Both the position numbers and the translations under genes were made by a program. A DNA stretch of 64,000 nt from Leptolyngbyaceae cyanobacterium C42_A2020_001 (GTDB lineage: Bacteria; Cyanobacteriota; Cyanobacteriia; Leptolyngbyales; Leptolyngbyaceae), in assembly GCA_015272515.1 (NCBI GenBank), contig JACYLN010000015.1, positions 1 to 64,000 on the forward strand. The letters run 5' to 3'. Below, one piece after another: positions 18,338 to 20,591 of the stretch; position 1 is the first letter of the stretch; each line of letters begins with the position of its first letter. Under the pieces are notes generated by a model, which saw only the letters and a program-made list of their open reading frames with translations, was not told the DNA's origin and searched no databases.

Positions 18338-19228
18338 ATGACTGCGACTGCTCTAACTGCTTCTGAGTGGGAACACCACTTTGTTGAAACAAACCGCATC
18401 CGTCTGCACTACGTAACGCAAGGAGCGGGAGAACTGGTTCTTTTACTGCATGGATTCCCAGAATTCTGGTACTCCTGGCGCTATCAAATCCCTGCTTTAT
18501 CGCGCCACTTTAAGGTGGTGGTGCCCGATCTGCGGGGCTACAACGATTCTGATAAGCCTGCAAGCGGTTACGATCTGGATACCTTAGTAGCTGACATTCA
18601 AGGTTTGATTGAAAGTTTGGGCTATACTCGCGCTCATATCGTGGGGCATGACTGGGGTGGCGCGATCGCCTGGCACATGGCACAAAAATTTCCTCAATAC
18701 CTCAACCGCATGGTGATCTTAAGTGCAGCTCCCGTTCAACGGTTTGTGCAAGAGCTGGTTAGCAACCTGGATCAACTGCGACGCAGTTGGTACATCCTGA
18801 GTTTTCAGATTCCCGGCATTCCTGAATGGTTGATTCAGCAAAACCTGGCTGAATTCGTCAAAAACTTACTCCGCGAACAAGCGATTCGTAAGGGTGCATT
18901 TACCAAAGAAGACACCCAGATTTATCAATCAGCCCTTGCCAAACCAGGTGCCCTCTCTGCGGCACTCAATTACTATCGGCAAATGTTTTCTCCCTGGAAT
19001 TGGGTACGCGATTGGATGAATACACCAAATCCGATTACAGTTCCCACCTTAGTGTTGTGGGGAGAGGAGGATTCGCTCGTTCCCCCCCAAGTGGCTCAAG
19101 GATTAGAACGTTTGATTGCTGCTCCATTTAATTTCAAACTGATTCCTCACTGTGGTCACTGGATTCAGCAAGAGGCTCCCCAAACAGTTAATCGAGAATT
19201 GCTGAGATTTTTGAGAAACGGCGAATAA
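18338..19228 (+). CDS. Alpha/beta hydrolase, epoxide hydrolase / haloalkane dehalogenase type
   Basis: 296-residue alpha/beta-hydrolase. The oxyanion-hole motif HGFPE is at 39-43 and the nucleophile elbow VGHDWGGA puts Asp105 as nucleophile, which marks the epoxide-hydrolase/dehalogenase branch rather than esterases. LVLWGEEDSLVPP precedes the acid region, and the catalytic His is in HCGHWIQQEAP. The cap region has the Tyr-containing INYYRQMF-like segment (LNYYRQMFSPW) seen in epoxide hydrolases. It has no signal peptide, so is cytoplasmic. The stop codon lies immediately next to the terminator of a minus-strand small RNA candidate. The substrate is unknown. Confidence 0.9.
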   Translation: MTATALTASEWEHHFVETNRIRLHYVTQGAGELVLLLHGFPEFWYSWRYQIPALSRHFKVVVPDLRGYNDSDKPASGYDLDTLVADIQGLIESLGYTRAHIVGHDWGGAIAWHMAQKFPQYLNRMVILSAAPVQRFVQELVSNLDQLRRSWYILSFQIPGIPEWLIQQNLAEFVKNLLREQAIRKGAFTKEDTQIYQSALAKPGALSAALNYYRQMFSPWNWVRDWMNTPNPITVPTLVLWGEEDSLVPPQVAQGLERLIAAPFNFKLIPHCGHWIQQEAPQTVNRELLRFLRNGE

Positions 19229-19286
19229 AAAAATACCTGGCAGCCCCCCGCCAGGTAAGTTAGGTTGCACTTGAGCAACTGTCTAT
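19226..19286 (-). ncRNA. Candidate small RNA, copy A of a tandem pair
   Basis: Read on the minus strand, the ~61-nt unit starts at ATAGACAG (19286). It forms a 5' hairpin GTTGC-TCAAGT-GCAAC (19279-19264) and has a single-stranded linker. It ends in a GC-rich hairpin CCTGGC-N8-GCCAGG (19255-19236) followed by seven Ts (19233-19227), a canonical Rho-independent terminator. Six bases upstream of the presumed start is a -10-like TACATT, and 18 bases further up the box GGGGAAGGA (19317-19325). All these elements recur at identical spacing in copy B. No ORF fits. Layout and size recall tandem cyanobacterial sRNAs (Yfr2/Cyano-1, NsiR1), but I cannot assign a family. Confidence 0.7.
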
Positions 19287-19410
19287 ATTTCTAATGTACA
19301 GAGTGAACGTTTTATCTCCTTCCCCGACTGGTGTGATTTATGTTTCACCCAAGTCAATCACCCAACCAGGTTAGCGGTATTTGCATAATTTGAACGAGGT
19401 ATGGTTTAGA

Positions 19411-19471
19411 TAAAAAAATACCCAGCAGCCCCCCGCCAGGTAAGTTAGGTTGCACTTGAGCAACTGTCTAT
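19411..19471 (-). ncRNA. Candidate small RNA, copy B of a tandem pair
   Basis: Second copy of the unit at a period of exactly 185 bases. The 5' hairpin and linker are identical to copy A. The terminator hairpin differs at two bases in its 3' arm (GCTGGG for GCCAGG). Both changes turn Watson-Crick pairs into G-U pairs, so the RNA stem survives. The T tract is again seven. The upstream -10-like box is TATTCT and the GGGGAAGGA box is at 19502-19510, each at the same distance as in copy A, while the intervening promoter bases differ. The 445-base spacer 19229-19673 holds this pair and the puuE-like leader. Confidence 0.7.
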
Positions 19472-19673
19472 GTTTTGAGAATACGACGACTTTCAAACAA
19501 TTCCTTCCCCACAAAGTATGAGCGATGGGGATGATTCCACCCTACCCGAATGGGTTACGGGGCAATTTTTGGTTTTGCGGCTTCTCCAGCAAAAATGCAT
19601 TGATTGATGGTTTGTGGAAGTAGCAGGAAGCATACAATGCTGGTCATGATTGAGCGTTGCAGGAAGAATTGTC

Positions 19674-20591
19674 ATGTCCGAAAGCTATCCGCGGGATATG
19701 GTGGGCTACGGTCGGCAGGTTATAGACCCGAAATGGCAGAACCAGGCTCGTGTTGCGGTGCAGTTTGTGATCAATTACGAAGAGGGCGGGGAGAACTGTA
19801 TTCTTCACGGAGACCAGGCTTCGGAAATGTTTTTGTCCGAAATTGTGGGAGCTGTGCCCTTTATGGGTCTGCGCCACATGAATATGGAGTCTTGCTATGA
19901 GTATGGCAGTCGGGCAGGGTTTTGGCGATTGCATCGGATGTTTACGGAGCGGCAGATTCCGGTGACGGTGTATGGGGTGGCGATGGCATTGGGACGAAAT
20001 CCGGAAGCCGTTACTGCCATGAATGAGGCGGCGTGGGAAATTGCCAGTCATGGCTATCGCTGGATTGATTACAAATATTTTGGGGAGGATGCAGAGCGGG
20101 AGCATTTACAACAGGCGATCGCGCTCCATACGAAAGTCACAGGTAGTCGTCCCTTAGGTTGGTATACGGGGCGCACCAGTCAATTTACGCGCAAACTGGT
20201 GGTGGAAGAGGGCGGCTTTCTTTACGATGCCGACAGCTACGCCGACGATTTGCCCTACTGGACGCATGACTACGGCAAGTCCCATCTTGTGATTCCCTAC
20301 ACCCTCGACAACAACGATATGCGATTTGCTACGCCACAAGGATTCAACTCTGGCGATCAGTTTTTTGCCTACCTGCGAGATGCCTTTGACGTGCTGTATG
20401 CCGAGGGGGAAACCGCTCCTAAAATGATGAGTATTGGGCTGCATTGTCGCTTAGTGGGTAGACCCGGTCGTGCAGCCTCCCTCGCTCGTTTTCTAGACTA
20501 TGTTCAGCAGCACGATCGCGTTTGGTTGTGCCGTCGAATTGATATTGCTCGTCACTGGCATGAGCATCACCAACCGAAGGGGAATGGGTAA
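19674..20591 (+). CDS. puuE: Allantoinase-like polysaccharide deacetylase (PuuE family)
   Basis: NodB-homology hydrolase of the cofactor-lean allantoinase branch, which opens allantoin in purine breakdown. ATG 19674, preceded by AGGAAG at a good distance, gives the family-typical start (SESYPRDMVGYGR); the TTG at 19650 is rejected. Family features seen: NYEEGGENCILHGD near residue 40, ESCYEYGSRAGFWRLHRMF, EIASHGYRWIDY and the C-terminal GLHCRLVGRPGRAASLARFL. Length 305 is usual. Purine-degradation partners are not in the window, but allantoin is a nitrogen source and would fit the nitrogen-scavenging theme further along. Confidence 0.9.
   Translation: MSESYPRDMVGYGRQVIDPKWQNQARVAVQFVINYEEGGENCILHGDQASEMFLSEIVGAVPFMGLRHMNMESCYEYGSRAGFWRLHRMFTERQIPVTVYGVAMALGRNPEAVTAMNEAAWEIASHGYRWIDYKYFGEDAEREHLQQAIALHTKVTGSRPLGWYTGRTSQFTRKLVVEEGGFLYDADSYADDLPYWTHDYGKSHLVIPYTLDNNDMRFATPQGFNSGDQFFAYLRDAFDVLYAEGETAPKMMSIGLHCRLVGRPGRAASLARFLDYVQQHDRVWLCRRIDIARHWHEHHQPKGNG

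Follow-up and report, generated by a model that had tools for sequence, protein, structure and literature searches.

The window, a 64,000-nucleotide stretch of contig JACYLN010000015.1 from Leptolyngbyaceae cyanobacterium C42_A2020_001, carries two minus-strand units, A and B (Table 1). Sequence comparison indicates that these are probably paralogous, free-standing genes for a trans-acting, base-pairing regulatory RNA of about 60 nt, controlled by an activator and belonging to a family unlisted in Rfam.

Table 1. Predicted features of units A and B and of the adjoining genes (positions in the window).
Feature	Position	Strand	Basis or remark
sRNA unit A, predicted ~60-nt RNA, +1 about 19286	19227..19286	-	Sequence; fold z -3.5; CM 88 bits
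Unit A 5' hairpin GUUGC-UCAAGU-GCAAC	19279-19264	-	Followed by linker CUAACU, then terminator
Unit A intrinsic terminator, 10-bp stem, GGGG loop, U7	19227..19257	-	Sequence, fold, covariation
Unit A -10 box TACATT	19293..19298	-	TA---T conserved in register across alignment
Unit A proximal operator TCACACCAGTCGGGGA, centre about -42.5	19321..19336	-	Motif scoring; includes GGGGAAGGA at 19325-19317
Unit A distal operator TAACCTGGTTGGGTGA, centre about -79.5	19358..19373	-	Motif scoring
sRNA unit B, predicted ~60-nt RNA, +1 about 19471	19412..19471	-	Sequence; fold; CM 82.3 bits
Unit B intrinsic terminator, two pairing-preserving differences	19412..19442	-	Sequence, fold, covariation
Unit B -10 box TATTCT	19478..19483	-	Sequence
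Unit B proximal operator TCATACTTTGTGGGGA, centre about -42.5	19506..19521	-	Motif scoring; GGGGAAGGA at 19510-19502
Unit B distal operator TAACCCATTCGGGTAG, centre about -78.5	19542..19557	-	Motif scoring
Allantoinase puuE, divergent neighbour	19650..20591	+	TIGR03212; 550.6 bits; E 7e-166
Alpha/beta hydrolase, convergent neighbour	18338..19228	+	PF00561

A sequence-only reading had described two units that are offset by 185 nt and share one body, and direct reading bore this out. The common body was 60 nt long, and reading and folding of both units confirmed the order of hairpin, linker, terminator hairpin and seven U residues. The units were identical over ATAGACAGTTGCTCAAGTGCAACCTAACTTACCTGGCGGGGGGCTGC to GGTATTTTTTTAT apart from a CA/TG difference in the terminator stem; as the reading had stated, these sole differences within the body change U-A to U-G and G-C to G-U and keep the pairing. 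A further difference (T/C) was located just 5' of the body. Each unit comprised palindromic sites, an 18-nt spacer and a -10 box, followed by ATAGACAGUUGCUCAAGUGCAACCUAACUUACCUGGCGGGGGGCUGC(CA/UG)GGUAUUUUUUU. The claimed equal spacing of GGGGAAGGA and the -10 box was likewise present, with an 18-nt gap in each unit and different bases within the gap. Both units folded into a 5-bp 5' hairpin and a 10-bp terminator stem, with energies of -24.4 kcal/mol for unit A (z -3.5; 0 of 200 shuffles equally stable) and -20.8 kcal/mol for unit B (z -2.4; 5 of 200). The 5' ends of the RNAs are predicted to lie at the A of ATAGACAG, and the 3' ends in the U-run. The units showed the features of a free-standing, intrinsically terminated sRNA gene, namely an own promoter, an own terminator, no coding frame and no gene downstream, the minus strand beyond both RNAs being free of genes in the ORF list. 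In a search within the same genome, unit B matched unit A at E = 5.5e-24, which excludes chance as the source of their likeness. The reading had named a dispersed repeat as an outcome that would count against it; the 5.55 Mb genome contained units A and B as its only two copies, and the units are therefore no dispersed repeat.

The covariance search of cyanobacterial genomes that had been suggested returned homologues in two families. Within the GTDB family of the window genome (f1; 42 genomes searched), BLAST matches lay in ten genomes besides that of the window; with a covariance model (R1) and the later inclusion of the G419 copy, the set grew to 23 copies in 20 of the 42 genomes. This count leaves out two weak covariance matches that lack both operator and loop (L127 and L128), which were treated as chance. 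In the genus of the window genome, all three species (G000, G397 and G398) carried two copies. The RNA is missing from roughly half of the f1 genomes and is thus dispensable. The 5' hairpin and the terminator folded in every f1 member with differing stem sequences; the 5' stem occurred as GUUGC/GCAAC, CAUUC/GAAUG, GGUAC/GUACC and AUCAC/GUGAU, with the hairpin kept. The terminator pairs were 100% standard (n = 22 sequences), and compensatory changes were present. The terminator loop was considered as an invariant seed and ruled out by the G419 copy, in which the loop is GCTCCC. At one locus (L119; G409:C1:1764557-1764621) the RNA body was intact and the operators and -10 box were lost, and we regard this as a decaying or differently driven copy.

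A broader model (R2), built from the RNA sequence alone with no promoter sequence, was searched against 390 genomes of the class and placed the RNA in one further family (f5). The class-wide searches used strict filters, with weak matches lost, and the E-values of the models built here are rough. Motif inspection confirmed 27 copies in 20 f5 genomes, and two further copies (G458 and G568) brought the total to 29 motif-checked copies in 22 genomes; the two families together held 52 copies in 42 genomes. The f5 RNAs began with a near-invariant AAGAUAAGUGACGUUCAU and ended, as in f1, with the GGGGGCUG terminator. Their promoters carried TCACCC-N4-GGGTGA, together with a GGNGAAG box that lines up with GGGGAAGG. 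This independent reappearance of the operator in promoters found through R2 is the strongest evidence that the f1 and f5 RNAs form one family. The terminator, operator and -10 box are common to both, whereas the 5' domains align poorly, with a common core of approximately AAGUG. When 257 genomes of the class were searched with a model of promoter plus RNA (R3), strong full-length matches came from f1 and f5 only. Over 47 sequences, 99.8% of the terminator stem cells were paired and 47 double-changed cells were observed versus 9.8 in shuffles, which indicates that the stem covaries and is under selection for pairing. Terminators of the GGGGGCTG type in G011, G553 and G560, which have neither the operator nor the 5' motif, were left out of the membership. 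A rare terminator hairpin CCTGGCAGGGGGCTGCTGGG was observed behind TCGGATTTCCGA in two of these genomes (G011 and G553; L159:5919-5979 and L234:3956-4020), with the operator and 5' motif absent.

The f1 promoters contained a 16-bp palindrome, TCRCCC-N4-GGGYGA, recurring near -42.5 and -79.5, with an extra half-site at -55.5. When anchored on the -10 box, the mean palindrome scores were 8.6/12 and 8.35/12 at the two positions, compared with an average of 3.5 at other promoter positions and a maximum of 5.4 in 500 shuffles; as these were shuffles of single sequences that ignore kinship, the exact significance is uncertain. Kinship does not, however, account for one motif recurring at two places and in two families. 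In f5 the palindrome was centred near -55, with a downstream half-site near -37, relative to the inferred +1. The -10 box was kept as TA---T in register across the aligned copies. The sequence-only reading had placed GGGGAAGGA where a -35 element would be and considered it a possible regulator site. The recurring operator supports and refines the latter suggestion: the palindrome centred at -42.5 covers GGGGAAGGA, which is thus the downstream half of the proximal operator and not the whole site. It sits slightly upstream of the normal position of a -35 hexamer.

The NtcA site GTAN8TAC was absent from all 22 f1 promoters scanned, and the DIF1 motif TCCGGA was absent from the two window promoters on reading. 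An operator of the NrrA/Rre37 regulon (GTCAC-N8-GTGAC, TCAC-N8-GTGA-like) would be expected in glgP promoters as well. The glgP upstream regions of seven genomes were without a comparable palindrome, and their best scores fell within the shuffled range. A regulon search of six genomes with the perfect palindrome gave scattered matches with no common function. The glycogen phosphorylase gene of G399 (G399:C1:5566086-5568486; L216 and L219) appeared to be split into two frames by an in-frame TGA and TAG, and is a pseudogene or reflects an assembly error.

The position of the gene in f1, beside or one gene from puuE in 16 of the 20 genomes and beside uraD (OHCU decarboxylase, PF09349/TIGR03164) in two more, initially pointed to the scavenging of nitrogen from urate, with the RNA as a dedicated regulator of puuE/uraD or of the purine pathway. 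We consider this improbable. The puuE gene was present in 38 of the 42 f1 genomes and was equally common in those without the RNA, and chlH, NAD(P)H-hydrate dehydratase, or glgB and rml genes take its place in the vicinity of the f5 RNAs. Pairing with the puuE leader mRNA did not exceed that of shuffles, except in G411 and G389, where it is trivial, the RNA gene itself lying opposite the puuE leader (antisense overlap). The location is therefore taken as lineage-specific synteny and, as the gene lies elsewhere in f5, does not reveal the function. Less probable again is a cis-acting element, either a leader or attenuator RNA or a bidirectional terminator that acts for adjacent protein genes. 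Roughly half of the f5 copies precede a glycosyltransferase gene on the same strand, at a distance of 150-400 nt in about half of the f5 genomes, and the terminator of window unit A overlaps the final bases of the convergent hydrolase ORF, touching its stop; both would fit such an element, and a leader role is conceivable for these f5 copies. Other f5 copies were not so placed, however, and the next downstream gene was convergent at nearly all f1 loci and several f5 loci. Furthermore, the plus strand had no U-run after the hairpin, and neighbours differed between the families and even between copies within G398. The body contained no conserved start codon or Shine-Dalgarno sequence and, together with the convergent downstream gene and the plus strand without a U-run, this argues that the f1 unit is neither an attenuator nor a small-protein gene. 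In the Stenomitos-group genomes (L145-L150), uraD and puuE flanked the sRNA gene, marking a urate-degradation locus in filamentous cyanobacteria, and in five of them a Uma2-type gene was inserted between the sRNA and puuE.

A non-transcribed repeat, a REP-like mobile element or a dead duplication is very unlikely. Two near-identical copies adjoin in the window, and G398 and G549 carried copies at more than one genomic site, as a mobile element might; yet there were usually one or two copies per genome, syntenic in f1, the stem pairing, operators and -10 box appear to be under selection, and matches to phage, plasmid and viral contigs were looked for and none was found. Between the window genome and G397, promoter A agreed at 68 of 95 positions and promoter B at 59 of 95; the two promoters of the window genome itself share 38 of 95. 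The A-type and B-type promoters are thus orthologous between species and the duplication is older than the species split, since when body, operators and -10 box have been retained in both copies. This comparison supports the earlier view that A and B are two active units and not a dead duplication. Tandem pairs or triplets in f5 (G488, G510 and G549) repeated the pattern, with bodies 79-100% identical and promoters 44-74% identical, which makes tandem multiplication under separate promoters a recurrent feature of the RNA family. There also seems little chance, about as little as for the cis-acting element, that the RNA is a divergent member of a described cyanobacterial sRNA (NsiR1, Yfr2, NsiR3/NsiR4 or IsaR1) missed by the Rfam models. 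It is of the same size class and, in organisation, the nearest system is NsiR1 (nitrogen stress-induced RNA 1) of Nostoc, which is likewise about 60 nt and occurs in tandem copies with individual promoters and small differences between copies (PMC9045159). NsiR1 differs in that its 12 copies lie upstream of hetF and have promoters with a DIF1 motif that are under HetR, whereas the window family has another operator without a DIF1 motif, another location (hydrolase and puuE) and no hetF-like neighbour. The window and 28 related loci had no match in Rfam 15, permissive E-value scans included; the suspected relation to Yfr2, Cyano-1 or NsiR1 found no support, and for Yfr2 and Cyano-1 there was no match either at the gathering score or with E-values of up to 5 allowed. 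The absence of the NtcA site and the confinement of model matches to two families also speak against a described sRNA.

Yfr2/Cyano-1 are short cyanobacterial two-hairpin RNAs ending in a terminator. The window family resembles them in these respects, and differs in having no Rfam match and in being restricted to two filamentous families. In NtcA-activated promoters, the site is located at -41.5. The NsiR3/NsiR4 type shares with the window family a free-standing intergenic sRNA gene with an activator site near -42 (PMC3898017); the operator of the window family is TCRCCC-N4-GGGYGA and not GTAN8TAC. We regard the RNA as a new family, though of a type already known. The search of the open-access literature found no sRNA described for these lineages. 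To this group of filamentous cyanobacteria the analysis adds an sRNA family that Rfam does not list, together with a covariance model ready for use.

Under the preferred reading of paralogous trans-acting RNA genes, minus-strand transcription would start at a separate promoter for each unit and stop at that unit's intrinsic terminator. The proximal operator near -42.5 lies where class II activators sit, and a dimeric regulator may switch the RNA on under some condition. The conserved 5' domain of the RNA, UCAAGU(G/A)C in f1 and AAGAUAAGUGACGUUCAU in f5, would then base-pair with mRNAs; by analogy with other terminator-ended sRNAs, this is the most likely mode of action. As the copies have similar bodies but diverging promoters, the extra tandem copies could increase RNA dosage or let the copies respond to different controls. 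The repeated tandem duplication, with bodies kept and promoters diverged, offers a natural case for why bacteria keep several sRNA copies, and the strictly conserved operator array is a direct handle on the regulator by DNA pull-down.

A wider regulon can be put forward tentatively. One regulator that binds TCACCC-N4-GGGTGA arrays on a 13-bp grid might control several multi-copy sRNA genes in non-heterocystous filamentous cyanobacteria, including the main family, at least one further RNA (ACTGATATACCTAAGCAGTTTGTC..., L287-L289) and the L285 RNA; if so, this would be a dedicated multi-sRNA regulon whose members gain tandem copies without losing the regulator sites. In three f5 genomes where the main family is also present (G502, G541 and G481; L287, L288 and L289, locus position ~1000-1130), another short RNA-like unit, ACTGATATACCTAAGCAGTTTGTC...ACCCGGCAGGAGACTGTCGGGT, was observed behind a TCACCC operator of the same kind and may be a second sRNA controlled by that regulator. 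At L285 (G530:C20:68230-68348), an operator and a GGGGGGC terminator accompanied an unrelated 5' part, GGAGAGTAAACAACGAATTCTCTTG, and this unit is perhaps a third RNA of the set.
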